Below, one piece after another: positions 9,478 through 62,965 of a stretch of 64,000 nucleotides of DNA (position 1 is its first letter; every line of letters starts with the position of its first letter). The notes under the pieces were generated by a model. That model saw nothing but the letters and a program-made list of their open reading frames with translations. It was not told the origin of the DNA and did no database searches. Location of the stretch: positions 62,001-126,000 of the forward strand of contig NZ_JALIEB010000006.1 in assembly GCF_025755255.1 (NCBI RefSeq), read 5' to 3'. The translations under genes were made by a program, and so were the position numbers. The DNA is from Roseobacter sinensis. GTDB taxonomy: Bacteria; Pseudomonadota; Alphaproteobacteria; Rhodobacterales; Rhodobacteraceae.

Positions 9478-10176
<699 letters not shown>

Positions 10177-10387
10177 GGGCATTCCTCTATCGCTGACCCC
10201 GCAAGGAGGTTCGGCCTCTTCTCGGTTCTGACAGATTGCATAAAACGCACTGTCCAAATAGCGACACGCGGATAACGGCGTGCGACCATCCGCCGCGAAT
10301 TTATCGCGCCGGATGCGGCCCGCACAAGCGGTTGCGACGTCGCCGCGTCCGAAAACTTTTCATAAAGATGTAGAGGTTAAGCGTGAG

Positions 10388-13300
10388 TTACTCGGCGGCC
10401 CGCACGAGGTTGAGGACGGGTTCCGCCTGTGGTCGGGCAGGGTCCTTCCGCGTGCGCCGGGCGTAGAGAAGCGCGAACATCGGCGGCGTGAAATAGAAGG
10501 ACACCACCGTCGAGAGCAGCACGCCGCCGGCCACCGACATCGCGAAGGGCGGCCAGAAGCCACCCCCGGCGAGGATGAGGGGCAGGAAGCCTCCGAAGGT
10601 GGTGATCGTGGTGCTGATGATGTGGCGGCTGGAGCCCATCAGCACACCGACCATGGCGTCAGCGTCGCCCGTGCGGGCCTTCGCGTCGTCACGCAGGCCC
10701 GTCATGATGATGATTGCGGCGTTGATCGACACACCGATGGAGCCGATGACCCCGATGATCGCGTTGATCCCGAAGGGATACTGGAAGATGGCCAGGGCGA
10801 GGATGCTGAGACCGGCAGAGAGCACGCTGACCACCAGGGCGATGGCTGACAGCCGGAAGGAGTTGAAGGTCATCACGATGGCCGCGATCGACAGCGTCAC
10901 GATCAGCCCGAGCGAGGCAAGCAGGTTGCCCATGGTCTCGGCGCGCGCGTCGCTGTCGCCGCCGATCTCCAGCCGGTAGCCCGCGGGCAGCGCGAAGCCC
11001 TCTGCATCGAGGGCCGCCTGCACGTCGACCAGCGCCTCTTCGGGCAGCACGTCGCGCAGGATGAACGCCTGTATCGTATTGACCCGCTCCGCGTTGCGCC
11101 GGGTGATGATCGGCTCGCTCGGCACCAGCGTCAGATTTGCGATGGCGGACAGCGGGATGCCAGGGAAGCGCCCCTCCGCCGAGAGCGCCGCAGCGGTCGG
11201 CGGCAGCAGGATCAGATCGGCGATTGCGGTGAGGTCACTTCGCGTGGCATCGCCGAAGCGCACCCGCACCGGCAGCTCCTCCGGCCCTTCCAGCAGCGAG
11301 CCGCCCGCGACACCTTCAAGGCCCGCTTCGAGCTGGCGCGAGACGGTGGCCAGTTCCAGCCCAAGCTGGCGGGCCTTGGCTTCATCGACGTCGATCCGCA
11401 CCTCCGGCGCGCCGGTGGTGACTGTCCCGCGCGCCAGCGTCACCATGTCCACATCCGCCACGATCCGCCGGACCTCTGCGCCAACCTCGCGCAGGGTAGC
11501 GAGATCGGGGCCGACGATGCGCAACTCGACAGGCGCGTCGACGGGGGGGCCCTGTACGAGACCCCGCACCAGCACCTGCGCTTCCGGGGCGACGGCGTCG
11601 ATTTCGCGCTCCAGCCGGGCAATCAGGGTCTCCGTGGCCTCCGGAGACGTGGTCGTCACCAGAGCTTCCGCGAAGCGAGCGGCGTCGTCGCGGCCGCCGG
11701 CCATATTGTAGTAGAAGGCTGGCGCGGATTTCCCCAAGACCCAGGAGACCTGCCGCGTCTCGGGCGCCTCCCGCAGAAGCGTGTCGAGCCGTTCCACCAC
11801 CGCGCTGGTCTGGCCGATGGCGGCACCCGGGCGCAGGTCGACTTCGATGTGGAACTGGTCGCGGTCCACGCCGGGGAAAAACTGCGCTGTCAGCAACGGC
11901 ATCGACAGGAAGCCCAGCACCGGCAGCACCAGTGCAAAGGCGACCGATCGGATCGGGTTCTGCACCGCCCACCGCAGGCTTGCGGCGAAGGCGGCCGAAA
12001 CAGCCGGAAGCTTGAGACCCGAGGACATCGGGCCGGTCTTGTCCGCGGCAGGCATTGTCCAGCCAGCGATGGCCGGGGTCAGCGTCACCGCAACGACGAA
12101 GGACCACAGCAGCATGGTGACCACGGCGATGGCGATGGACCCCACGAAATCACCGGCCGGGCCGGGCAACAGGATCATCGGTGTGAAGGAGAGGGCGGTG
12201 GTGACCGTCGAGGCAAAGAGCGGGGCAAGCAGCCGGCGCACGGCACCCCGCACCGCGGTGACCCGCGCCTGCCCGCGCGCGATCCGCTGGCCGACTTCGT
12301 CGGTCATCACGATGCCCGCATCGACCAGAAGGCCCAGGGCCACGATCAGCCCGGTGACGGACATCTGGTGGATGGCAAGCCCGATGATGTTCATGGTCGC
12401 GAGCGTCGCGAGCGACACAATCGGCAGGATCAGCGCGACGATCAGGGCCGCGCGCACGCCCATGGTGATCAGCAGAACGCCCACGACCAGGCTCACGCCA
12501 ATTGCCATGTTCCCGCCGACCTCGGCGAGCCGCTCCGCCGTATAGCGGCTTTGGTCGAAGACCAGCTCGGCGGTGATGCTGTCGGGGACGGTGGCCGCAA
12601 ACGCATCAAGCGCCGCGATCACCCGGTCCATCCAGACGTCGACCTGAAGCCCGTCTTCCAGCTTGGCGGCCACCAGCACTGCTGGGGCGCCGTTGTGGAT
12701 CGCCTGCTCGGCCAGCGGCAAGCGCGGCCCGCGGCTGATCTCGGCGATGTCGGCGACATGGGTCACCTGGCCATCGGGCCCCTCGCGCACGATCATCTCG
12801 CGCACCCGCTCCAGCGCGGTGATGTCTCCGGCGATATCGAGGATCAGTTCATTCTCGAGGCTGCGCAACCGGCCCGCCTGGCCCTTGCTGTCGGCGCGGG
12901 CAACCGCGGCGGAGACGTCGTCGGCCGTCAGGCCGAGAGCGGCGGTTTTCACCGGGTCGAGCGTGACCAGCACCTCTTCCTCGGGTGCGCCGAAGGTTTC
13001 GACCTGTTTGGTGCCGGCGGTGCTGCGCAAGCTGTCCGCCAGTGTCTCCGCATAGCGGCCCATGATCGACAGCGGCACCCCGGCGTGATCGGCGGACAGC
13101 GCTATGATCGCGCCGAAGGTGCCGGCCCCGTCGGAGGAGAACTCGGGCGTCAGCGCGCCTTGTGGGAAATTGGCCTCCGCATCGCCCAGAGCGTCTCGGA
13201 TCTCCGACCAGACCTGCTCGATCCGGTCGTCCGGCAGGGTCTCGAGCAGATCCACCCGCACGATGGAAATGCCTGTGGCGGAGGTCGAGTTGATCTCGTC

Positions 13301-33160: not shown

Positions 33161-34414
33161 TCAGCCCCAGATGGCTGACAGCACCAGCCCGGCGGCCGCC
33201 ATCGTGGCGAGCGTTTCCACGAGCCCGCGCTTCAGTCCGAGGAGCAGAACCGCCGCCAGCAGCGTGAGACCAAGCGCGCCGGGATCGAGCGAAGCCGGTT
33301 GCGGGACGGGGATCGCGTGCCACTCCGCGCTGCCGATGTCGCGAAAGAGCACGTGGATGCCGAACCAGATCGCGAGGTTCAGGATCACCCCGACGACAGC
33401 CGCAGTGATGGCGCGCAGGGCTGCCGCAACCCGCGGTTTGGTCGAGATCAGATCGAGGTAGGGGCCGGCCAGAAAAATCCAGAGGAAACAGGGCGTGAAG
33501 GTGACCCAGAGCGCCAGCGCCCCTGCTGCGAGCGCGAGCAGGATCCCGCCTTGGGCGAACCCCGCCAACAGGGCGACGAATTCGGTCACCAGGATCAGCG
33601 GCCCCGGGGTGGTTTCGGCCAGACCCAGCGCGTCGATCATCTGCGCGGTGCTGATCCAGCCATAGTCCTGCACGACTGTCTGGGTCATATAGGCCAGCAC
33701 CGCATAGGCCCCGCCGAAGGTCACGACGGCCAGTTTGGAAAAGAACAGGGCGATCTGTGTCAGGAAGCTGTGATCTGCGAGCCAGACTGCGACGACGGGC
33801 AAGGCCCAAAGGCTGCCCCAAAGCCCCAGCGTCCGGACGGTGTGGGGCGCGGCGCCGGGCGCGGCGCGCGCCTCGCCCGGCACCGCGCCCGCCGCCCCAG
33901 CGCCGTAAAGCGCTGCGGCGGCGATGATCAGCGGAAAGGGCAGCCCCAGGACGAAGAGTGCCAGAAAGGCGCACCCCGCGAGGACATAGGCGCTGCGCGT
34001 CGTCAACGCCTTCTGTGCGACTTTCAGCAAGGCCTGCAGCACGATGATGATCACCGCTGCCTTGATACCCGAAAACGCCGCCTGCACCAGCGGCACCTGC
34101 CCGTAGAGCGCATAGCCGAGCGCCAGACACAGGATCACCGCCGCGCCCGGCAGCACGAAGAGCAGGCCCGCAATCAGCCCGCCGAGCGTGCCGCGCAGCC
34201 GCCATCCGGCGTAGGTTGCAAGCTGCATCGCTTCGGGGCCGGGCAGCAGCATGCAGAGCGAGAGCGCGCGCAGAAACCCGTCTTCCGTCAGCCAGGGACG
34301 CTCTTCGACCAGCTCCCGGTGCATCAGTGCAATCTGGGCCGCCGGTCCGCCGAAGGACAAAAGGCCAATCCGCCCGAAGACGCGGATCAACTCGGCCTGG
34401 CTGGGCGCGCTCAT
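33161..34414 (-). CDS. chrA: Chromate transporter ChrA
   Basis: A 417-residue inner-membrane CHR-family exporter with two homologous halves. The first carries FGRIGLLSFGGPAAQIALMH and MLLPGPEAMQLATY; the second repeats the pattern with FSKLAVVTFGGAYAVLAYM and AETTPGPLILV. Ten or so hydrophobic helices are visible. The start overlaps the stop of the upstream ChrB-like gene, so the two form a chromate-resistance operon. Confidence 0.94.
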   Translation of the reverse strand: MSAPSQAELIRVFGRIGLLSFGGPAAQIALMHRELVEERPWLTEDGFLRALSLCMLLPGPEAMQLATYAGWRLRGTLGGLIAGLLFVLPGAAVILCLALGYALYGQVPLVQAAFSGIKAAVIIIVLQALLKVAQKALTTRSAYVLAGCAFLALFVLGLPFPLIIAAAALYGAGAAGAVPGEARAAPGAAPHTVRTLGLWGSLWALPVVAVWLADHSFLTQIALFFSKLAVVTFGGAYAVLAYMTQTVVQDYGWISTAQMIDALGLAETTPGPLILVTEFVALLAGFAQGGILLALAAGALALWVTFTPCFLWIFLAGPYLDLISTKPRVAAALRAITAAVVGVILNLAIWFGIHVLFRDIGSAEWHAIPVPQPASLDPGALGLTLLAAVLLLGLKRGLVETLATMAAAGLVLSAIWG

Positions 34415-35169
34415 GCGGCCAGCTCCGGTGTCTGCCCGTCCCGCGCCCAGAGATAGAGCGCATCGCAGAGCGTCATCGCCGCTGCGAGGCGCGCATGATC
34501 GCCCGCGCCGCTCAGTTCCAGTCCGGTGCCAAGCGCGGCAATGCCCGCAGCCTCTGCCGGTGCTGCGCGGGGCGCCAGCACGCCCGCCATCTTGCGGAGC
34601 GCATCGGTGTCGAGCCCCATGCGCTGAGACAGGGCACTGAAGGCCGCGGCCGAGCCCTCCGTCGTGCCAAAGGGGATCGCCGAAAACCGCTCCGCAACAT
34701 CGTCCACCTCCGCAGGAGGTACGAAGAGAAACTCCGCATCGGGTGCGATGAACCGCCGGATCAGCCAGGCGCAGGCGAGACTCTCAAGCGCCGGGTCTGT
34801 CACGGTCACCCAGCGGCCTGGCCCGGCCGGGGCTGGCAGCTGGCCAAGCGGCACCCGTGGCAAACCGGCGGCGCGCCAGGCGAAATTGCCACCTTCGAGG
34901 ACCAGCGCGTCTGCGCCCCGCTGCCGCAGCAGGGCCGCCACCCCGTGGCTGAGCTTGCGCCCTTTCTGACAGACGATAACGAAGGTTTTTTCTTTTAAGT
35001 CAGAGAGAAGAGCGTCGATCTTCAAGTGACTCCAGCGACGAGCAGTCGGCACGATGAAAGGGTCTTTCTGCACGTCGCCGTCCAGAGCCACATCAACGAT
35101 TGCCGGAGCGTGATCGGTTCCGATCAGGCGCATGAGAGTTTGCGGGGTCAGTGTGGCGAATTGCGCCAT
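34411..35169 (-). CDS. Rhodanese-ChrB-like chromate resistance protein
   Basis: A 252-residue two-domain protein. Residues about 1-105 form a rhodanese fold with the active-site cysteine C67 in VIVCQKGRK. Residues about 120-240 match the C-terminal domain of ChrB (WVTVTDPALESLACAWLIRRFIAPDAEF and FGTTEGSAAAFSALSQRM). ChrB proteins sense chromate or assist its reduction; here the usual N-terminal DNA-binding part is replaced by rhodanese, so an enzymatic role seems more likely than regulation. ATGA overlap with chrA supports joint translation. Confidence 0.85.
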   Translation of the reverse strand: MAQFATLTPQTLMRLIGTDHAPAIVDVALDGDVQKDPFIVPTARRWSHLKIDALLSDLKEKTFVIVCQKGRKLSHGVAALLRQRGADALVLEGGNFAWRAAGLPRVPLGQLPAPAGPGRWVTVTDPALESLACAWLIRRFIAPDAEFLFVPPAEVDDVAERFSAIPFGTTEGSAAAFSALSQRMGLDTDALRKMAGVLAPRAAPAEAAGIAALGTGLELSGAGDHARLAAAMTLCDALYLWARDGQTPELAA

Positions 35170-35429
35170 ATCGAAGCATCCTTTTGTCACGTCAACAGGA
35201 TGCGATACTTGGGCCAACGCCTCACGGGGCGATCGCGAACTCCCCTGAGGTCAGGGGTGCCATAGAAGAGCGCGCGCGGTCAACGCCGATGTCGCCCGAG
35301 CGGCACGGCCGCCCGGGCAGGCACGGAAGCGGCCGGTTATGACAGTGGCCGCAATACCAGTCCGGGCTGCGGCCGCTGGACAATGCGCGATCAGCATTCC
35401 GCGCTGTCTGTGGGCGGCGGCTGTGAGGA

Positions 35430-37329: not shown

Positions 37330-38061
37330 CTAGCGGCGGGCGGCACGCGCGGCGAAAACGCTTTGTGCCAGCGTTTGGGTTTCCTGCTCCAGCGCAGTCA
37401 GAGCGGTGGCCGTGGCGCCACCGTCTTGCGCTTCGATGGCGTCGGCGATGCCTTCATGCAGCGCGATGATGCGGGCGCGGTCGCGGGCGGTGAAGGTGAT
37501 CATGTTCATCAGCGGCTGCATCGCCTCCACAGCGCCCGCGAGCTGGTAGCTCAGCACCGGGTTTCCGGCCCCATCCACCAACGCGCGGTGAAAGGCCACG
37601 TCGGAGGCGCAGAAGGCTTCGTCAGTCAGGCCCGGCTGAGCCTGGCGATGGATCTCGGCGCGCATGGTCGCGAGGTGATCCGGCGTCCGCCGTGCGGCTG
37701 AGAGCGGGGCGCAGGCGCGCTCGAGCGCGTAGCGCGCCTCGCAGGCGGTTTCGAAACTCACCGCGTTCATGCTCAGCAGCAGCGTCGAGGTGGTGATCTG
37801 CTGGGGTTGCGCCGCCTCGAAGCTGAGCCGGTTCACGAAAGCGCCGCCAGTCGCCCCGCGCTGCGTGCGGATGAGCGACTGCGCGGCCAGCCGCTTCAGC
37901 GCCTCGCGCACAGTGGGGCGCGAGACGTCGAATTGCTCGGCGAGCTCCGCCTCGGACGGCAGGCGTTCGTCGACAATCAGGCTGCCGGAGATGATCGCAT
38001 CGCGGATGGCGCCCGCGATCTGGGCAGAGAGGTCGACGGTGCTGTCGGGGTCGATTTTCAT
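37330..38061 (-). CDS. FadR-subfamily GntR regulator, candidate DmdR
   Basis: A 243-residue regulator: winged helix at about residues 10-75 (AIISGSLIVDERLPSEAELAEQFDVSRPTVREALKRL region) and an FCD effector domain (about 95-230) with acidic and histidine residues typical of metal-assisted carboxylate binding (DVAFHRALVDGAGN, ALHEGIADAI). I use ATG 38061; the longer reading lacks a ribosome site. It is divergent from the DUF2182-DUF1326-DinB-dmdA-acuI run. In Ruegeria a GntR-type regulator next to dmdA-acuI (DmdR) responds to acrylate, so I infer a similar role. Confidence 0.85.
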   Translation of the reverse strand: MKIDPDSTVDLSAQIAGAIRDAIISGSLIVDERLPSEAELAEQFDVSRPTVREALKRLAAQSLIRTQRGATGGAFVNRLSFEAAQPQQITTSTLLLSMNAVSFETACEARYALERACAPLSAARRTPDHLATMRAEIHRQAQPGLTDEAFCASDVAFHRALVDGAGNPVLSYQLAGAVEAMQPLMNMITFTARDRARIIALHEGIADAIEAQDGGATATALTALEQETQTLAQSVFAARAARR

Positions 38062-38072
38062 ATGTCTTACAT
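38062..38072. promoter_or_regulatory. GntR operator site 1
   Basis: ATGTCTTACAT is an inverted repeat that fits the FadR-subfamily consensus (tGT-N-AC pattern). It touches the regulator's own start codon, so binding would repress its transcription or block its translation start region. Confidence 0.6.
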
Positions 38073-38094
38073 TTAATGTTTGCCCGGGTTCTAA

Positions 38095-38105
38095 ATGTCT
38101 GGCAT
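38095..38105. promoter_or_regulatory. GntR operator site 2
   Basis: ATGTCTGGCAT repeats site 1 with two changes. The centres are 33 bases apart, about three helical turns, so dimers at both sites would lie on the same face of the DNA upstream of the DUF2182 gene. Confidence 0.55.
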
Positions 38106-38132
38106 TTGAATCGCAAGGAGACAAGGCGACTC

Positions 38133-38906
38133 ATGCAAGGCACCCTGCGCACCACTCTCTGGTTGGGCTTTTTCGCGGCAATCTTGGCCGCGTGGTGGGT
38201 GATGTATGCGATGAGCGTCGAAATGGACCTCGACCTGCTGGGCCGTCCCGGCCCGGCGGGGCAGGCGATGGCGGCGATGGATCCGCGCATGCCCATGTAT
38301 ATGCCGATGGCGACTTTCGGGCCGCTGTTCGCGATGTGGGCGGTGATGATGGCGGCGATGATGCTGCCGACGCTGGTGCCCACGCTCCGCGCATATGAGG
38401 ACCTGATGGTCAGCGCAAACGGAACCCGCGCCGGGTGGTTGGGCGTGCTGCTGGGCTACTTCATCGTTTGGGTGGGCTTTGCCGCGGTCATCACGGGTGC
38501 ACAGCTTGCGCTGCTCTTTGGTGGCGTGGTGGATATGCTGGGCATCGCCCGGAGCCCTTGGGTCGCGGGCGGATTGTTGCTCGCCGTGGGCGCCTTCCAG
38601 TTCACGCGCGCCAAGGACATCTGCCATGGTGTGTGCCACGCGCCGGCCATGTATTTCCTGGGGCACTGGCGCACCGGCTTTGCGGGCGGGCTCCGCATGG
38701 GTCTGGGCCTGGGCGCATTCTGCGTCGGCTGTTGCTGGGGGTTCATGAGCCTCGGCTTTGTCGGCGGGGTGATGAACCTGGCGTGGATGGGCCTCGCGAC
38801 GCTCTTCATGGTGATCGAGAAGCTGCCGCAGATCGGGCATTATGTGACGAAACCAATGGGTGTGCTGCTGTGCCTCGCGGGGCTTGCGGTCATCGTGGGA
38901 GGATAG
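38133..38906 (+). CDS. DUF2182 integral membrane protein
   Basis: A 257-residue membrane protein with about six helices, of the DUF2182 family (predicted metal-binding). Features include MWAVMMAAMMLPTLVPTL, the cysteine/histidine segment DICHGVCHAPAMYF and a second cysteine cluster AFCVGCCWGF within helices. Abundant Met, Cys and His suggest copper or another soft metal. I start at ATG 38133, behind the AAGGAG region, because the longer frame reads through the operator region. It is the first gene of the run leading to dmdA and is three bases from the DUF1326 gene. Confidence 0.85.
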   Translation: MQGTLRTTLWLGFFAAILAAWWVMYAMSVEMDLDLLGRPGPAGQAMAAMDPRMPMYMPMATFGPLFAMWAVMMAAMMLPTLVPTLRAYEDLMVSANGTRAGWLGVLLGYFIVWVGFAAVITGAQLALLFGGVVDMLGIARSPWVAGGLLLAVGAFQFTRAKDICHGVCHAPAMYFLGHWRTGFAGGLRMGLGLGAFCVGCCWGFMSLGFVGGVMNLAWMGLATLFMVIEKLPQIGHYVTKPMGVLLCLAGLAVIVGG

Positions 38907-38909
38907 GAT

Positions 38910-39617
38910 ATGGCCAAGAACAGAAAGCCGGATGCGGATCGTCTGCCGATCAGCCAGCGGATCGACCAGCGGATGCCGAACCCAAAGCGTCGGGAGATGA
39001 GCCCGACGGAATGGGCGATCAAGGGGGAACTGTTCCTCAACTGCTCCTGCACGGTGTTCTGCCCTTGCGTGGTGTCGCTGGGCGCGCATCCGCCCACTGA
39101 AGGGCACTGCCACGCCTGGATGGCGATTGCCATCGACGAGGGGCACTACGAGGGCGAAGACCTCGGCGGTCTGAACATCGGGCTGCTCGTCGACATCCCT
39201 GGCCGGATGGGCGAGGGGAACTGGAAGGTCGCGGCTTACGTGGACGAACGCGCCACGGGCAAGGCCTACAACGGGATCTTGCAGATTTTCTCGGGTGCTG
39301 CGGGAGGCACGACGGGGCTCTTCACGATGCTGGTGAGCGAGATTATCGGGGCGGAACGCGCGCCAGTGGAGATCGTGCGGGACGGCAACCGCCGCTCCAT
39401 CATGATCGGGCGCAAGATACAAGGAGAGATCGAGATGCTGGCGGGCAAGGATCCCGAGCATCCGGTGATGGTGAGCAACTCGAAGTACTGGATGGGCCCC
39501 GATATCATCGCGGCCACCGGGCTGAAGAGCCGGGTGCGGGATTATGGCCGCGTCTGGGATTTCGGCGGGAAATCGGCCGAGATCTGCCCGATTGACTGGA
39601 AAGGTCCCAAGCCGTGA
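38910..39617 (+). CDS. DUF1326 family protein
   Basis: A 235-residue soluble protein of the DUF1326 family. Its N-terminal motif has C45, C47, C51 and C53 (NCSCTVFCPC), then H60 and GHCHAW (66-68), a likely soft-metal site. The function is unknown; DUF1326 and DUF2182 genes recur side by side, so the two probably act together. The stop overlaps the DinB start (GTGA). Confidence 0.85.
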   Translation: MAKNRKPDADRLPISQRIDQRMPNPKRREMSPTEWAIKGELFLNCSCTVFCPCVVSLGAHPPTEGHCHAWMAIAIDEGHYEGEDLGGLNIGLLVDIPGRMGEGNWKVAAYVDERATGKAYNGILQIFSGAAGGTTGLFTMLVSEIIGAERAPVEIVRDGNRRSIMIGRKIQGEIEMLAGKDPEHPVMVSNSKYWMGPDIIAATGLKSRVRDYGRVWDFGGKSAEICPIDWKGPKP

Positions 39618-40129
39618 TCGACCGGGAGTATGTGCGGCTGATGGCGCGCTACAACGCCTGGCAGAACCATTCGCTCTATTACGCGGCCGCTGGTCTGGAC
39701 GCCGAGGCGCGCGAGGCCGACCGCGGCGCGTTCTGGGGGTCGATCCGCAAGACGCTGGCGCACCTTGCCTGGGGCGACCAGATCTGGATCGCGCGCTTTG
39801 ATGGCGGTGACGGTCCGGCGATGGGCGCGATGGAGGCATTCGAGGCCTATGATTGGGAGACGCTCTGGTCGCTGCGGCCCGAACTCGATGCCCGCATCGC
39901 TGGATGGGCTTGGTCGGTGGCGGACGATGATCTGAAGGGGGACTTGACGTGGCATTCGGGCTTTCTCGGCGCCGACCTGACCCGTCCGAAGGCGCTCTGT
40001 GTCGTGCAGCTTTTTAACCATGAGACCCATCACCGCGGGCAGGTCCATGCGATGCTCACCGCGGCCGGCGCACGGCCCGACGATACCGATGTACCCTTCA
40101 TGCCTGACGAGGTGCCGGAATGGCGCTGA
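39614..40129 (+). CDS. DinB/YfiT-family metal-dependent protein
   Basis: A 171-residue four-helix-bundle protein of the DinB superfamily. The metal-binding histidine triad appears as H50 (KTLAHLAWGDQ) and H136/H140 (FNHETHHRGQ). Relatives include thiol transferases that use glutathione, mycothiol or bacillithiol, and maleylpyruvate isomerases. GTG start at 39614 overlaps the previous stop; the 3' end overlaps dmdA by ten bases, so it is translationally tied to DMSP demethylation. Its substrate is unknown. Confidence 0.85.
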   Translation: MIDREYVRLMARYNAWQNHSLYYAAAGLDAEAREADRGAFWGSIRKTLAHLAWGDQIWIARFDGGDGPAMGAMEAFEAYDWETLWSLRPELDARIAGWAWSVADDDLKGDLTWHSGFLGADLTRPKALCVVQLFNHETHHRGQVHAMLTAAGARPDDTDVPFMPDEVPEWR

Positions 40130-41223
40130 TTTCTCCCTCGCGGCGGTTGCGCCGCACGCCCTTTTCCGACGGTGTCGAGGCCGCGGGCGTGAAAGCCTAC
40201 ACGATCTACAACCACATGCTGTTGCCGACGGTCTTCGAGAGCGTTGAAGCGGATTATCACCACCTGAAGAACCACGTTCAGGTCTGGGATGTCTCGGTAG
40301 AGCGGCAGGTGGAACTGCGCGGGCCTGATGCGGCGCGTCTGATGCAGATGCTGACCCCGCGCGATCTGCGGGGGATGCTGCCGGGGCGGTGTTTCTACAT
40401 CCCCATCGTGGATGAAACCGGGGGCATGCTGAATGATCCTGTGGCGGTGAAGCTGGCCGAGGACCGCTGGTGGATCTCGATTGCGGATTCGGACTTGCTG
40501 CTCTGGGTCAAGGGCATTGCCAATGGCTGGCGGCTCGATGTGCTGATCGACGAGCCGGACGTGAGCCCGTTGGCCGTGCAGGGGCCCAAGGCGGACGACC
40601 TCATGGCGCGGGTCTTTGGCGACAGCATCCGGGATGTGCGGTTTTTCCGCTTCGGCCTTTTCGAGTTTGAGGGGCGCGAGCTGGCGATTGCGCGCTCGGG
40701 CTACTCCAAGCAGGGCGGCTTCGAGATCTACATGGAGGGCAGCGACCTGGGCATGCCGTTGTGGAATGCGCTCTTCAAGGCGGGCGAAGACCTGAACGTG
40801 CGCGCCGGCTGTCCAAACGCCATCGAGCGGATCGAGGGCGGTTTGCTGAGTTACGGCAACGACATGACCGACGACAATACGCCCCATGAATGCGGGCTCG
40901 GGCGGTTCTGCGACACGCAGACGGCGATTGGCTGCATCGGGCGCGATGCGCTCCTGCGGGTCGCCAAGGAAGGGCCCGTGCAGCAGGTCCAGGCGATTGC
41001 GATTCAAGGCGATCCGGTGCCGGTCTGTGATCGGATCTGGCCGCTTTATGGCTCGGGCCGACGCGTGGGGCAGGTGACCTCTGCCGCCTGGAGCCCCGAC
41101 TTTCAGACCAATGTCGCCATCGGTATGGTGCGCATGACCCATTGGGACAGCGGCACCGAGTTGGAGGTGGAGACGCCCGATGGCATGCGCAAGGCTGTGG
41201 TGCAACCAGGCTTCTGGGCGTGA
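40120..41223 (+). CDS. dmdA: Dimethylsulfoniopropionate demethylase
   Basis: A 367-residue GcvT-fold enzyme that moves a methyl group from DMSP to tetrahydrofolate, giving methylmercaptopropionate. The start SPSRRLRRTPFSDGVEAAGVKAYTIYNHMLLP and later SPLAVQGPKAD, SGYSKQGGFEIYMEG, CPNAIERIEGGLLSYGNDMT match the characterised Ruegeria DmdA closely in memory, rather than glycine-cleavage GcvT. The adjacent acuI supports this. The gene overlaps DinB by ten bases. Confidence 0.93.
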   Translation: MALISPSRRLRRTPFSDGVEAAGVKAYTIYNHMLLPTVFESVEADYHHLKNHVQVWDVSVERQVELRGPDAARLMQMLTPRDLRGMLPGRCFYIPIVDETGGMLNDPVAVKLAEDRWWISIADSDLLLWVKGIANGWRLDVLIDEPDVSPLAVQGPKADDLMARVFGDSIRDVRFFRFGLFEFEGRELAIARSGYSKQGGFEIYMEGSDLGMPLWNALFKAGEDLNVRAGCPNAIERIEGGLLSYGNDMTDDNTPHECGLGRFCDTQTAIGCIGRDALLRVAKEGPVQQVQAIAIQGDPVPVCDRIWPLYGSGRRVGQVTSAAWSPDFQTNVAIGMVRMTHWDSGTELEVETPDGMRKAVVQPGFWA

Positions 41224-41315
41224 GCGAGGCGACAGCTGTTGCGCCATTGAGTATTTGTGGACGGGTGAAGCGGGAGGCCATTTGCCCCACGCATCCCGAA
41301 GGACAGGAGAGAGCG

Positions 41316-42308
41316 ATGTTCAAGGCACTTGTGGTGGACAAGGATGAGGAAAGCGGCAAGACATCCGCTGCCGTCGAGGAGATCGATGCAGCCCGCCTGC
41401 CCGAGGGGGATGTGACTGTCGCAGTGGAGTATTCCACGGTGAACTACAAGGATGGTTTGTGCATTGGGCCCGGAGGCGGGCTGGTGCGGCAGTATCCGCA
41501 TGTGCCGGGGATCGATTTTGCCGGGACCGTCGAGGCATCGGACGATGACCGCTACACACCCGGCGACAAGGTGGTGCTGACCGGCTGGCGCGTGGGCGAG
41601 GTGCATTGGGGCGGCTATGCGCAGAAGGCGCGGGTCAAGGCCGATTGGCTGGTGCCCTTGCCCGAGGGGCTGGACACGCGGGCGGCGATGGCCGTGGGGA
41701 CAGCGGGTTTCACCGCGATGCTGGCGGTGATGGCACTGGAGGACCATGGGTTGAAGGTTGGCGACGGGCCGGTTCTGGTGACAGGGGCCGCGGGTGGCGT
41801 GGGCTCGGTCGCGACGGCGATCCTTGCGCAACTCGGCCATGAGGTGGCCGGTGTGACAGGCCGCCCAGAGACCGCCGAGTATCTGAAAGGCCTCGGCGCG
41901 AGCCAGATCGTGGCGCGCGAGGAGATCAATGAGACCGTGAAGCGCCCGCTGGAGGCGGAGACCTGGTCGGGATGCGTCGATGCGGTGGGTGGCGCCATGC
42001 TGGCACGGGTGCTGGGGCAGATGAAATATGGCGCCTCGGTTGCCGCTGTGGGGCTTGCGGGCGGCGCGGGGCTGCCTGCGACCGTCATTCCCTTCCTGCT
42101 GCGAGGTGTGAACCTCCTGGGCATCGACAGCGTCATGCAGCCCTATGACAATCGCGTGCGGGCCTGGAGCCGGATTGCCAGCGATCTGCCGATGGACAAG
42201 CTCGAGGCGATGGTACAGCCCGCAACCCTGTCTGACCTGCCGCAGCTCGGCGCCGAGATTCTCAAAGGTCAGGTCAAGGGCCGTGTGGTCGTCGATGTGA
42301 ACGGATGA
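41316..42308 (+). CDS. acuI: Acrylyl-CoA reductase AcuI
   Basis: A 330-residue zinc-less medium-chain dehydrogenase that reduces toxic acryloyl-CoA to propionyl-CoA with NADPH. Recognised regions are YSTVNYKDGL, HVPGIDFAGTVE and the nucleotide-binding GAAGGVGSVATAI. It follows dmdA by 92 bases and starts at ATG 41316 behind AGGAGAGAG. dmdA-acuI is the standard roseobacter order and lets the cell handle acrylate from DMSP cleavage. Confidence 0.95.
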   Translation: MFKALVVDKDEESGKTSAAVEEIDAARLPEGDVTVAVEYSTVNYKDGLCIGPGGGLVRQYPHVPGIDFAGTVEASDDDRYTPGDKVVLTGWRVGEVHWGGYAQKARVKADWLVPLPEGLDTRAAMAVGTAGFTAMLAVMALEDHGLKVGDGPVLVTGAAGGVGSVATAILAQLGHEVAGVTGRPETAEYLKGLGASQIVAREEINETVKRPLEAETWSGCVDAVGGAMLARVLGQMKYGASVAAVGLAGGAGLPATVIPFLLRGVNLLGIDSVMQPYDNRVRAWSRIASDLPMDKLEAMVQPATLSDLPQLGAEILKGQVKGRVVVDVNG

Positions 42309-43134: not shown

Positions 43135-44988
43135 TTACTCGGCCGGTTGCGGATCGGTCTCGCCGATGGTCATGCCGGCCTTCACGCGGCGGCCGTCGTT
43201 GACGAGCGCCTTGATCAGCGCGATCGCCATCAGCACCATCACCATGGTGAAGGGCAGGGCACCGACGATCATCGCGTCCTGAAGCGGTGCGAGCGGGTCC
43301 GCGTTGTTCGGATCGATGGCCCCCGCCACAATCAGGCTGCCGATCACGAAGGTCAGGATCAGGCCCCAGATGATGCGATGCTTGACGCCCGTCTCCTGCT
43401 CGCCGCCCGACATGATGGTGTTCATCACGAGGATGCCGCTGTCCGCCGAGGTCACCAGGAACGTCATGATCAGCACGACGCACATGATGATGACCGCACC
43501 CAGCAGCCACTCCGGCACGATCATCTGCAGTGAAACGAAGAGCTTGTTGGTGTTCGACGCGGCGATGATGGCGCCGTCGGCCACGCCCTGAAGCTCGTTG
43601 TTGACCGCGGTGCCGCCGAGAATGGTGAGCCAGGCAAAGCACACCAGCGCCGGGGCGATGACGCAGCCGAAGATGAACTCGCGCACCGTGCGGCCCTTGG
43701 AGATGCGCGCGAGGAACAGGCCCACGAAGGGTGAAAACGCGATCCACCAGGCCCAGTAGAAGGTCGTCCAGCCCGACTGCCAGCCGAAAAGACGGCCCTG
43801 GGTGCCGGCCTCATAAGCCGCGGCCAGAGTGGCTGGCGCAAGGGCGGCGGCGTCGCCGTCTAGGCCGGAGGCGAAGCTGTCGTAGCTGCCCCAGGCATTG
43901 GTGGCTCCGCTGTAGAGGCTCCCCGCGACGGGCTGTGCCTCGGCGGGCAGGGCGGCGGCGAAACTCGCCTCATCTAGCGGGCTATAGGCTTCGAAGCTCA
44001 GCGGGATGAAGTTCCAGACGTAATCCGCCAGTGCGGTGCCATAGGTTGTCAGCGAGAAGAGGAACGAGCCGAAGACGATGAAGGTCAAGAGTAGCAGGAG
44101 CGACAGCACCAGATTGAGGTTCGACAGATACTTGATGCCGCGCCCGACGCCGGAGACGGCGGAGAGGATCGACATGCCCATGATGATCGAAAGCGCCGTG
44201 ATCAGCCCGACGGTGGAAGGTTTTGCGGCCTCACCTTCGGCGGCGGTGCCCATAAGCCACTCCATGCCCGTCACGTTGTAGACGCCATCGACGAACTGGC
44301 TAACGCCATAACCGATGGTGACGGCGACGCCCAGGATGGTTGCAACCACCCCCAGCACGTCGACCACATGGCCCAGGAAGCCATTGGCAAAGCGGCCCAG
44401 AAGCGGGGTCAGCGCCGAGCGGATGGTCAGCGGCATGTCGCGGGTATAGGCGTAGTAGGCGAGGCTCAGCCCGGTGATCACGTAGATCGCCCAGGCATGA
44501 AAGCCGAAGTGCAGCAGCGCATAGCGGAAGGCCGATTGCACCGCCTCGGCCGAATTGGGATCGGCGCCTTGCGCCACGATCACCGGGTTCGAGCCCCAGA
44601 GGCCCACTGGCTCGGCGGTGGCGAAGACCATGAGCCCCACACCGAGACCGGCGCCGAACATCATCGCGAACCACGAAAAAGTCGTGAATTCGGTTTTGGT
44701 GTCCGGCCCGCCGAGCTTGCGTTTGCCCGTGGGCAGCAGCGCCACGACAAACAGAAAGAACGCGAAGAAGCCGACGGAGATGATGTAGAAGGCGTTGAAA
44801 TCCTGAAGCGTCGCCCAATTCCAGGCGTCGAGCGTTTGGGTGGCTCCGATGGGCCAGATGATGGCCCAGAGCACGAGGGCGACCATGGTGATTTTCGACA
44901 ACAGCGCAATCGGCAAGCTGTAGCCTTCGTAAAAGCCGGAGTCCTGGGTGTTGATCTCCAGGTCCGTAAAGGGCGGTTTGACTGACAT
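43135..44988 (-). CDS. BCCT-family transporter (betaine/choline/DMSP type)
   Basis: A 617-residue transporter with twelve hydrophobic helices. The family signature WAWWIAFSPFVG is in helix 8, and helix 3 has GAGLGVG, where ion-coupled BCCT carriers show a glycine-rich turn. A long periplasmic loop of about 80 residues sits between helices 7 and 8. I start at MSVKPPFTD (44988); the longer frame has no conserved sequence. It is convergent with the dmdA run. BCCT carriers import DMSP and betaines, so it may feed the demethylase. Confidence 0.92.
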   Translation of the reverse strand: MSVKPPFTDLEINTQDSGFYEGYSLPIALLSKITMVALVLWAIIWPIGATQTLDAWNWATLQDFNAFYIISVGFFAFFLFVVALLPTGKRKLGGPDTKTEFTTFSWFAMMFGAGLGVGLMVFATAEPVGLWGSNPVIVAQGADPNSAEAVQSAFRYALLHFGFHAWAIYVITGLSLAYYAYTRDMPLTIRSALTPLLGRFANGFLGHVVDVLGVVATILGVAVTIGYGVSQFVDGVYNVTGMEWLMGTAAEGEAAKPSTVGLITALSIIMGMSILSAVSGVGRGIKYLSNLNLVLSLLLLLTFIVFGSFLFSLTTYGTALADYVWNFIPLSFEAYSPLDEASFAAALPAEAQPVAGSLYSGATNAWGSYDSFASGLDGDAAALAPATLAAAYEAGTQGRLFGWQSGWTTFYWAWWIAFSPFVGLFLARISKGRTVREFIFGCVIAPALVCFAWLTILGGTAVNNELQGVADGAIIAASNTNKLFVSLQMIVPEWLLGAVIIMCVVLIMTFLVTSADSGILVMNTIMSGGEQETGVKHRIIWGLILTFVIGSLIVAGAIDPNNADPLAPLQDAMIVGALPFTMVMVLMAIALIKALVNDGRRVKAGMTIGETDPQPAE

Positions 44989-45262
44989 GTGTTTTGTTTT
45001 CTCTCTGTTGCGATCCGACCATCTTGATGGGTCGGTATCGGGGTCAGACCGGCGTTCGCGCGATGGCGCGGTATGTTTCGCCGACCGTTTGGAGGACGCG
45101 CGGACCCCGCGCGATGCTTGAGTCTGCCAAATGATTCCCGTGCCAGTTGTCGAATCCGCGACATGTCCGGCACTAAAGCGACGAAAAATGAGACTCGTGC
45201 CTGCCGCGCCTCTCTGTATTTCGTTTCTTGACCTGCGCCCTCCATCGGGGAACGGTGCGGGC

Positions 45263-46486
45263 ATGACACTTGATACAGACTTCGTCCGCCGCCAGTTTCC
45301 CGCCTTCTCCGAGCCGAGCCTGCAGGGGCAGGCGTTTTTCGAGAACGCGGGCGGCTCCTACACCTGTGGGGCCGTGATCGACCGGCTGATACGGTTCTAC
45401 CGAGAGCGCAAGGTCCAGCCCTATGCTCCCTACGAGGCCAGCCGGCTGGCGGGAGCCGAGATGGATGAGGCGCGCACGCGACTGGCGGCGATCCTCGGGG
45501 TGGAAAGTGATGAGCTGAGCTTTGGCCCCTCGACCACGCAAAACACTTACGTGCTTGCGCAGGCCTTTGCGCAGATGTTGCAGCCCGGCGAAGCGATCGT
45601 CGTGACCAATCAGGACCACGAGGCGAACTCCGGACCCTGGCGGCGGCTCTCGGATCGCGGCATCGAGGTCCGGGAATGGCGGCTTGATCCCGACACCGGG
45701 CATCTCGATCCCGAGGATCTGGAAAACCTGCTGGACGATGATGTCCGGCTGGTGTGCTTTCCGCATTGTTCGAACGTTGTGGGCGAGATCAACCCGGTGA
45801 CGGAGATCACGGCCCTGGCCCATGCGGCGGGCGCCTTCACCTGCGTCGACGGAGTGTCGTACGCGCCGCACGGGCTGCCGGATGTGGGCAGCCTGGGCCC
45901 CGACATCTACCTCTTCTCGGCCTACAAGACCTATGGGCCGCATCAGGGGCTGATGGTGATCCGCCGCACGCTGGGCCAGTTGCTGCCGAACCAGGGGCAC
46001 CATTTCAACGGCGACGTGCTCACCAAGCGCTTCACGCCCGCGGGGCCCGATCACGCGCAGGTGGCGGCCTGCGCCGGCATGGCGGATTACATCGACGCGC
46101 TCCATGACCACCACATCGGCGGGGCCGCCAGTCCGGTGGAGACGGGCCGCGCCGTGCACGACTTGATGCGCGCACATGAGGTCGCGCTGCTTGCGCCGCT
46201 GCTCGAGGCGGTCAAATCGCGCAACTCCGTCCGGCTGATCGGGCCGGGCGACGCAGAGCGGCGTGCACCCACGGTGGCCCTGGCGCTGGAACAGCCGGGC
46301 GAAGAGGTGGCCGCTCTGCTGGCCGATCACGGCATCATGGCGGGCGGCGGCGACTTCTACGCGGGCCGCCCGCTGGAGGCGATGGGCGTCGATACACAGA
46401 AAGGCGTTCTGCGCCTGAGCTTTACGCATTACACGACCCCCGGCGAGATCGACCAGCTGCTGAACGCGCTCGACGATGTTTTGTGA
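45263..46486 (+). CDS. Class V aminotransferase-fold PLP enzyme
   Basis: A 407-residue PLP enzyme related to cysteine desulfurases and isopenicillin epimerase. The cofactor lysine is K222 in LFSAYKTYGPHQG, and D196 (CVDGVSYAPH) should hold the PLP ring nitrogen. The N-terminus FFENAGGSYT is typical. The start is ATG 45263, behind GGGGAACGG. No cysteine-loop diagnostic of a desulfurase is evident, so the substrate is uncertain. It is divergent from the BCCT transporter. Confidence 0.85.
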   Translation: MTLDTDFVRRQFPAFSEPSLQGQAFFENAGGSYTCGAVIDRLIRFYRERKVQPYAPYEASRLAGAEMDEARTRLAAILGVESDELSFGPSTTQNTYVLAQAFAQMLQPGEAIVVTNQDHEANSGPWRRLSDRGIEVREWRLDPDTGHLDPEDLENLLDDDVRLVCFPHCSNVVGEINPVTEITALAHAAGAFTCVDGVSYAPHGLPDVGSLGPDIYLFSAYKTYGPHQGLMVIRRTLGQLLPNQGHHFNGDVLTKRFTPAGPDHAQVAACAGMADYIDALHDHHIGGAASPVETGRAVHDLMRAHEVALLAPLLEAVKSRNSVRLIGPGDAERRAPTVALALEQPGEEVAALLADHGIMAGGGDFYAGRPLEAMGVDTQKGVLRLSFTHYTTPGEIDQLLNALDDVL

Positions 46487-61948: not shown

Positions 61949-62965
61949 ATGGGCAGCATGAAAGCCGCCGTCGTCACCGACTTTACGCAGCCGCTCGACA
62001 TCCGAGAGGTCGAGCGACCGACCGTGTCAGACGGCAAGGTCGTCGTGAAGATCGAGGCCTGTGGCGTTTGTCACACCGATCTGCACGCCGCGCGCGGTGA
62101 CTGGCCCGTGAAGCCGACACCGCCATTCATACCCGGGCACGAGGGCGTCGGTACCGTCGCGGAGGTGGGCCGCGGCGTGACGTCCGTGAAGGAAGGCGAC
62201 CGGGTCGGCGTGCCCTGGCTGCACACGGCCTGCGGCCATTGCCGGCACTGCGTGGGCGGGTGGGAGACACTCTGCCCCGATCAGTCCAACACCGGCTACA
62301 GCGTGAATGGCGGGTTCGCGGAATATGTGCTGGCCGATCCGGGCTATGTCGGGCACCTCCCGCGTGCCCTCGAGTTTTCGCCCGCCGCACCGATCCTGTG
62401 TGCCGGGGTCACGGTCTACAAAGGGTTGAAGGAAACCGATGCGCGCCCCGGTCAGACGGTCGCAATCGTCGGCGTGGGCGGTCTCGGGCACCTGGCAGTG
62501 CAATACGCCAAGGCGATGGGGTTTCACGTCATCGCCGTGGATATCTCGGATGAGAAGCTTGCCTTGGCCGCGTCGCTCGGGGCGGATCTGACGGTGAATT
62601 CCGCCACAACCGATGCGGCAGCCGAGCTTCAGAAAGGCGGCGGTGTCGAAGGCGTTCTGGTCACTGCGGTCTCGCGCGACAGCTTTGCCCAATCCGTCGG
62701 GATGCTGGGCCGGGGCGGCACGATGAGCCTCGTCGGTCTGCCACCCGGCGCCTTCGACCTTCCGATTTTCGAGGTCGTGCTGATGCGGAAGACCATCCGC
62801 GGGTCGATCGTGGGCACGCGAAACGATCTGGTCGAGGCGCTGGAGTTTGCGGCCGAAGGCAAGGTCGCCTCGCACTACAGCACGGATCGGCTCGACAACA
62901 TCAACGGGATCTTCGACCGGATGGAACAGGGCCAGATCGAGGGGCGTGTCGTGATGGAGATCTGA
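61949..62965 (+). CDS. adhP: Zinc-dependent alcohol dehydrogenase (AdhP-like)
   Basis: A 338-residue medium-chain alcohol dehydrogenase. Catalytic zinc ligands include C41 ([16 protein letters not shown]) and H64 (GHEGVGTV); the structural-zinc cysteines are in [15 protein letters not shown]. The NAD-binding [14 protein letters not shown] follows. The match is to AdhP/Adh1-type ethanol dehydrogenases. It is five bases downstream of the P-type ATPase, so the two are likely co-transcribed, but a shared role is unclear. Confidence 0.94.

Follow-up and report, generated by a model that had tools for sequence, protein, structure and literature searches.

What is the function of the three genes that stand ahead of dmdA and acuI, two genes for the breakdown of dimethylsulfoniopropionate (DMSP), a sulfur compound of algae, and of its toxic by-product acrylate, in Roseobacter sinensis? 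The locus lies in a stretch of 64,000 nucleotides (the window; positions 62,001 to 126,000 of contig NZ_JALIEB010000006.1, assembly GCF_025755255.1), where genes for a DUF2182, a DUF1326 and a DinB-family protein precede those for DMSP demethylase (dmdA) and an acrylyl-coenzyme A (CoA) reductase (acuI). Comparison of gene neighborhoods showed the DUF2182-DUF1326 pair, often with DinB, to be a conserved module, found within the family most steadily with acuI; in most dmdA-bearing genera dmdA stands between the two, but it can be absent. The best explanation is that the window carries the full form of a roseobacter acrylate/DMSP operon, GntR/operator/DUF2182-DUF1326-DinB-dmdA-acuI, a reading to which we give slightly less than an even chance when the roles proposed below for GntR and Cu(I) are included.

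Gene order in the window

The GntR/FCD-family regulator gene (37330 to 38061, minus strand; PF00392, 68.1 bits; PF07729, 72.2 bits) is divergent from the operon. Its start is abutted by two operator-like sites, ATGTCTTACATTT and ATGTCTGGCATTT (38062 to 38109), which lie 33 bases apart with half-sites at 38064 and 38097 and whose sequence is conserved in the gap. On the plus strand follow the gene for DUF2182 (38133 to 38906, ATG start), a multi-helix membrane protein with hydrophobic segments that belongs to PF09948 (Pfam PpoB2, "copper chaperone"; 198.4 bits against a gathering score of 28.7), and that for DUF1326 (38910 to 39617; PF07040, 175.6 bits against 25), which has a conserved CxCx3CPC...C cluster and a predicted fold like that of acetoacetate decarboxylase (ADC). 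The DinB-family gene (39614 to 40129, GTG start; PF05163, 77.7 bits against 23) encodes a His triad. The dmdA gene (40120 to 41223, plus strand) scored 700.1 bits with the NCBIfam equivalog NF009133 (cut-off, 410), and 3' of it lies the acuI/yhdH-family gene (41316 to 42308, plus strand), whose product exceeded the cut-off of the subfamily model TIGR02823 (448.8 bits against 297.25) and fell slightly below that of the AcuI equivalog NF051456 (426.5 bits against 440). The acuI homologues of two related loci, L125 and L127, scored 427.1 and 423.5 bits with the latter model.

The gap between DUF2182 and DUF1326 is 3 bases, the GTG start of DinB lies within the DUF1326 stop (GTGA, a 4-base overlap), and DinB overlaps dmdA by 10 bases. 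The five genes and these junctions had been described in the original prediction and agree exactly with the window coordinates. The tight linkage to dmdA-acuI that it also described holds as far as dmdA and not for acuI, since acuI starts 92 bases past dmdA.

Conservation of the upstream genes beside dmdA

Named loci were sampled as the best 80 of at least 590 matches to the window DmdA and searched by tblastn with the window proteins, dropping pieces below 60 bits; genes in fetched loci were called with a crude open reading frame script. The pair was found 5' of dmdA in 72 of the 80 loci, 58 of them with a window-like pair (type A) and 14 with a divergent one (type B; 40 to 51% identity to the window in DUF2182 and 55 to 64% in DUF1326). 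Between pair and dmdA, DinB is present in 56 loci, and in one other locus it is 3' of dmdA; the DinB/dmdA junction ranges from a 10-base overlap to a 14-base gap in all 56. A divergent GntR gene is present in 78 loci (the other two show a contig end and a displaced GntR), and acuI is 3' of dmdA in all 80. As gene order and near-zero gaps recur, the window arrangement is not a chance one. The GntR gene stands directly before dmdA, the order given for Ruegeria in the original prediction, in 8 of the 80 loci, and these are from genera other than Ruegeria/Silicibacter or are unassigned; all 20 Ruegeria/Silicibacter loci of the sample carry the pair, contrary to that order (R. pomeroyi DSS-3 lies outside the sample).

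Because near relatives are over-represented among these 80 loci, one genome was also surveyed from each of 120 genera of the window's family, for which "roseobacters" is a label taken from named relatives. A DmdA-like match at E ≤ 1e-100 was present in 58 genomes, of which the 48 above the curated cut-off were counted, and DUF1326 was present in 60. DUF1326 lies at most 3.5 kb 5' of dmdA on the same strand in 37 of the 48. Both genes were found in 40 genomes, dmdA only in 8, DUF1326 only in 20 and neither in 52 (Fisher p = 2.6e-9, uncorrected for phylogeny). A survey of dmdA neighborhoods had been proposed at the outset, and in both samples the arrangement recurs. The trio thus appears to share one transcription unit with dmdA-acuI, conserved across the family, behind an operator on the GntR side.

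Partners of the pair away from dmdA

The genus-level survey gave 33 places with DUF1326 distant from dmdA, of which 20 were fetched and 5 had been seen as loci L125 to L129; the other 8 were left out (four in genome G442, two in G449, and one each in G474 and G520). Here tblastn pieces below 45 bits were dropped. DUF1326 proteins were divided by a roseobacter hidden Markov model into a pathway type (at least 290 bits) and a generic type. Among the 20 fetched loci, all from the window's family, 13 are of the pathway type, each with an adjacent DUF2182, and in 9 of the 13 acuI is the next gene after the pair or after the pair and DinB. In L250 the next gene encodes another enoyl-CoA reductase, crotonyl-CoA carboxylase/reductase (Ccr; TIGR01751, 544.8 bits against a cut-off of 378.55), and two loci (L240 and L243) run into the contig edge. 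Similarly, acuI follows the pair in L125, and the pair with DinB between in L127, without dmdA in either interval; in L128 a DmdA-like gene (broken tblastn pieces) and then acuI follow, and in L126 acuI is divergent, across the GntR gene. Genome G523 has an intact pair-DinB-acuI run (L255), with dmdA about 54 kb away. Since acuI comes next without dmdA in such loci, it appears to be the steadiest partner within the family, with dmdA a frequent insert.

At the level of the class, 56 of 387 genomes contained DUF1326, and 60 loci, a subset of the places found, were fetched (tblastn pieces below 40 bits dropped). Eleven of these are of the pathway type. Four (L188, L199, L213 and L216) have both dmdA and acuI, and L188 places the linkage in another family. 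In four genomes of one genus from another family (L196, L202, L209 and L214), the pair is accompanied by an acyl-CoA ligase gene with a DddP-like gene nearby (394.7, 387.1, 398.8 and 381.3 bits, respectively, against an equivalog cut-off of 600). The Marinovum algicola plasmid pMaD9 (CP010864) carries the run GntR/DUF2182-DUF1326-ligase-dmdA-acuI-SBP56, whose pair was labeled "involved in DMSP breakdown" by its depositor. Loci of the generic type (below 290 bits) showed no recurring neighbor family among 354 neighbor proteins; the best cluster, by eye like short-chain dehydrogenases/reductases, occurred in 7 loci. Gene order in generic loci was DUF1326 first in 28 and DUF2182 first in 1, with no adjacent DUF2182 in 20. 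For want of a recurring neighbor family, the generic pairs were rejected as a guide to function.

The units of the pair with acuI or Ccr apart from dmdA, together with the ligase/DddP-like loci, suggest that the module belongs to acrylate/DMSP catabolism rather than to demethylation alone.

The operator and a candidate GntR regulon

Most of the best 80 loci have, between GntR and the first gene, two sites that fit (A)TTGTCTGACATTT. The half-site GTCTGACATTT, allowing at most one mismatch, had 155 matches in 1.146 Mb of these loci, 148 of them in that gap, and at least one half-site was present in 76 of the 78 loci with GntR. The operator stands before DUF2182 where the pair is present and before dmdA in all 8 loci without the pair, and no half-site match was found within 200 bases 5' of dmdA in loci with the pair. 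Since the motif was derived from these same loci, its genome-wide placement served as an independent test. In the window genome the strict 14-mer has three perfect matches, two at the window operon and one just 5' of an SBP56 gene (methanethiol-oxidase family), and one further match with a mismatch. Over 59 genomes the strict pattern gave 46 matches and the reversed pattern 6. Of the 46, this operon and its variants account for 33, the region before SBP56 for 8 and other places for 5 (G016:C1:485271, G003:C91:61164, G026:C71:59369, G032:C77:9096 and G030:C22:8362). Two genus genomes, G001 and G008, had no strict match.

The operator lies 76 to 132 bases before the SBP56 start in 8 of 17 genus genomes, the window genome included; the 17 are those with the close SBP56 type (81 to 100% identity to the window genome's copy), excluding G010 and G012, which have only a type at 43 to 44%. 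The operator placement makes common control of the trio and dmdA-acuI most likely, and the GntR regulon may extend to SBP56 in part of the genus. As a side observation, in L164 (genome G021, 9759 to 12502) the GntR/operator unit consists of acyl-CoA dehydrogenase-DinB-acuI without the DUF pair; the nearest model to the dehydrogenase is the acryloyl-CoA reductase AcrC (232.7 bits against a cut-off of 640).

Apparent exchange of pair types and of DinB

On a tree of DmdA plus AcuI (a quick tree, with SH-like approximate likelihood-ratio support only), the labels type A, type B and no pair required 7 changes, and none of 200 shuffles was as low. The type B locus L088 is nested in a type A clade, and loci without the pair share a clade with type B. 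On this tree, types A and B are seen to replace one another in the same slot.

The window DinB gene (39614 to 40129) is an apparent single-gene exchange in an otherwise congener-like operon. Nucleotide identity to three genus relatives was 0.61 to 0.67 over approximately 39733 to 40130 and 0.81 to 0.90 just outside. The protein shares 78% identity with its counterpart from an Aestuariivita metagenome-assembled genome (L105), where the same 10-base DinB/dmdA overlap is found, and 41 to 59% with those of congeners. DinB therefore looks to have been exchanged on its own, with fast divergence as the alternative.

Protein features and an enzymatic alternative

The soft-metal or thiol features originally pointed out in the three genes were borne out, being among their most conserved residues. 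In DUF2182, four Met (M68, M72, M76 and M77) and five Cys (C164, C168, C197, C200 and C201) are invariant. Over 42 aligned DUF1326 sequences (18 pathway type and 24 of 53 generic), W35, C45, C47, C51, C53, C67 and D112 are kept in both classes. The DinB His triad (H50, H136 and H140 in the numbering of the L105 homologue) was present in 56 of 56 homologues. The DUF2182 model is a helical membrane protein (mean predicted local distance difference test score [pLDDT], 82); its fold search gave no PDB match better than E 1.1, and its search against PDB sequences a single match at E 0.57. Against PDB sequences, DUF1326 gave no match and DinB only a marginal one (3di5, E 0.0066).

The serious rival to a metal-handling role starts from the predicted structure of DUF1326, which resembles ADC: the protein may be an enzyme with an ADC-like beta fold whose substrate is a small acyl or aldehyde product arising in acrylate/DMSP breakdown, with DUF2182 as membrane partner or transporter and the Cys cluster structural or catalytic. 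That the best match is an enzyme fold would favor catalysis as much as a chaperone. Counting against this reading are 8 to 14% identity and a root mean square deviation of 4.3 to 5.1 Å for the ten best entries and Foldseek TM-scores of only 0.35 to 0.43, in a model with pLDDT 76.5 and a poorly modeled Cys loop. ADC uses a Schiff-base lysine. Alignment of the two DUF1326 classes shows no Lys column conserved in both (the best, K38, reaches 0.78 in the pathway type and 0.25 in the generic type), so this lysine is not kept, and any likeness to the ADC superfamily would be in predicted fold only, DUF1326 having instead the conserved CxCx3CPC...C cluster. An enzymatic role is considered unlikely, while being the strongest of the alternatives.

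SBP56 as a possible client

The SBP56 of the window genome belongs to its family (PF05694, 595.5 bits), and a simple scan of it showed no hydrophobic segment. Because its score with the MtoX equivalog NF052453 is far below the cut-off (115.9 bits against 650), its methanethiol oxidase activity is presumptive. The pair could be a copper-loading system specifically for this oxidase, a cytosolic-type counterpart of the role presumed for SCO1/SenC with the periplasmic enzyme. The operator shared with SBP56 in 8 of the 17 genus genomes, the single run of pair, ligase, dmdA, acuI and SBP56 on pMaD9, and L166, where DUF1326 stands with a truncated DUF2182, ligase and SBP56, are consistent with this, as is the copper dependence of Hyphomicrobium MtoX (PMC5739008, in part). 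Carriage was checked in 28 genomes, comprising 11 further pathway-type DUF1326 carriers and, for the rest, generic carriers and G197. Eight of the 11 lack SBP56, and G023, G029 and G033 have the pair and dmdA and no SBP56, while three generic carriers (G095, G339 and G345) have it. With so many carriers lacking SBP56, a strict MtoX chaperone was rejected as the principal reading, and given also the presumptive activity of the window genome's copy, dedicated loading of SBP56 is improbable.

In the window genome (L136, contig C16, 6919 to 9938), SBP56 is followed by a membrane protein gene and one for a YghU-type glutathione-dependent disulfide oxidoreductase (511.3 bits against a cut-off of 325). 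The adjoining membrane protein recurs in most relatives; YghU recurs only in L157 and L159. A second SBP56 type lies beside a distant DUF2182 in L138 (5402 to 7969) and L156 (7964 to 10403). In L138, SBP56 is further flanked by genes for an IclR-like regulator and a ferredoxin-like protein, both below curated cut-offs.

Other genes near the operon

A BCCT-family transporter gene (43135 to 45264; 467.1 bits) is convergent with the window operon. BCCT genes lie 3' of acuI in many related loci and possibly serve uptake of DMSP or betaine. Also 3' of the operon is a class-V aminotransferase gene, cysteine-desulfurase-like (45131 to 46486; Aminotran_5, 173.9 bits); class-V aminotransferases with similar N-termini are also 3' in L250 (8366 to 9604, below cut-off) and L126 (12975 to 14201, by eye), making this a possible further linked gene. 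At 33161 to 35217, a chromate transporter gene (PF02417, 246 bits) adjoins one whose product has a C-terminal domain of ChrB (PF09828, 70.7 bits).

Proposed role and remaining alternatives

In the proposed mechanism, GntR would repress the operon and a DMSP-derived acrylate compound would relieve the repression, as suggested by the induction of dmdA-acuI in R. pomeroyi by acrylate, and not by methylmercaptopropionate (PMC3338564, in part). The pair would be a device for handling a soft metal, most likely Cu(I), in which the Met/Cys-rich membrane protein DUF2182 exchanges metal with the cytosolic Cys-cluster protein DUF1326. Such a device would hold copper in safe form, or pass it on, at a time when the thiol pool is disturbed by acrylyl-CoA and methanethiol, and DinB may act as a metal-dependent, thiol-linked helper. 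The evidence for copper handling consists of the PF09948 family name and the conserved Cys and Met residues. By analogy with the transfer of copper to tyrosinase by PpoB2 (PMC2855505, in part), and in view of the copper-dependent Hyphomicrobium MtoX and the acrylate induction, a role in Cu(I) handling or thiol protection around acrylyl-CoA and methanethiol is suggested, at odds slightly below even.

Several observations weigh against this picture in addition to the enzyme fold of DUF1326. DUF1326 is absent at E ≤ 1e-20 from 8 of the 48 dmdA genomes, and 8 of the best 80 named loci are dmdA-acuI without the pair; the pair is therefore not essential. In L251 neither dmdA nor acuI adjoins the pair and DinB, and none of the pathway genes sought lies close to DUF1326 in three pathway-type loci outside the family (L184, L207 and L215), two of which (L184 and L215) also lack DUF2182. 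Two of the 78 GntR loci (L066 and L067) have no half-site at one mismatch. The operator before SBP56 is limited to 8 of the 17 genus genomes, and in R. pomeroyi mtoX stands after an IclR gene and is responsive to methanethiol (PMC5739008, in part), which argues against any general rule that SBP56 belongs to the regulon. Finally, PpoB2 is one member of its family and acts in another pathway.

The function originally proposed, one tied to the demethylation products methylmercaptopropionate and methanethiol, draws on the place of the pair, immediately before dmdA in most of the surveyed genera that have dmdA, and on the presence of the operator before SBP56 in part of the genus. Against it are the loci with the pair apart from dmdA (of 13, acuI is next in 9 and Ccr in one; acuI is again next in L125 and L127) and the separation of dmdA from the intact run in G523. 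A tie to demethylation as such is also opposed by the ligase/DddP-like pairing in four genomes and by the R. pomeroyi dmdA-acuI fusions, for which methylmercaptopropionate was not an inducer (PMC3338564, in part). As pair-acuI units without dmdA exist, a link to demethylation only was rejected, and the broader form of this proposal is quite improbable. That the trio are passengers sharing the promoter by history, with no pathway role, would fit their absence from 8 of the best 80 loci and the divergent, apparently exchanged DinB, but is very hard to reconcile with the swapping of pair types in the same slot, with linkage across 37 genera and into another family (L188), or with the lack of a common neighbor at generic DUF1326 loci.

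Relation to known systems and significance

The dmdA-acuI operon is of a known kind: among 26 roseobacters with dmdA, acuI is reported to come after it in all except two (Todd et al. 2012, PMC3338564, in part). The R. pomeroyi operon shares this order and its co-induction by acrylate; the portion of that paper available makes no mention of 5' DUF2182, DUF1326 or DinB genes or a GntR operator, whereas in the window these head the unit. The part available of PMC4334477 likewise showed no link of dmdA to a GntR gene. PF09948 is named after PpoB2 (COG5486) of Marinomonas mediterranea, also a transmembrane protein, encoded in an operon with an oxidase (PMC2855505, in part). PpoB2 serves a tyrosinase, whereas the window partners are DUF1326, DinB, dmdA and acuI, with no known cuproenzyme within the operon. 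The mtoX-SCO1/SenC-mauG cluster similarly sets a putative copper chaperone gene beside organosulfur catabolism (PMC5739008, in part), but SCO1/SenC is another protein family and that methanethiol oxidase is periplasmic, unlike what the simple scan suggests for the window genome's SBP56. In the open-access literature searched, no mention of DUF2182 or DUF1326 was found, nor of SPO1911 or SPO1912, only SPO1913 being found. That literature likewise yielded, as judged mostly from listings, no account of the conserved module heading the operon, of its link with acuI or of the sharing of the operator with SBP56.

We put forward tentatively, as possible rather than probable, that marine DMSP/acrylate catabolism includes DUF2182-DUF1326(-DinB) as a widely conserved component not yet described, either a Cu(I)-handling or a Cys-cluster enzyme module, in a GntR regulon that joins acuI, dmdA and, in part of the genus, SBP56, with copper and thiol stress built into the pathway. 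The common operator provides a testable regulator and regulon that would link acrylate, demethylation and methanethiol oxidation. DUF1326 and the pathway-type DUF2182, two uncharacterized families, are given a physiological context. The dmdA-acuI genes are a core route of DMSP turnover in roseobacters, and the pair beside DMSP/acrylate enzymes suggests an overlooked accessory step in it. If the genes heading the operon in most of the surveyed genera with dmdA are a metal or thiol module, the pathway would have a component not found in the literature searched, and the use of DMSP by these bacteria may depend on copper.

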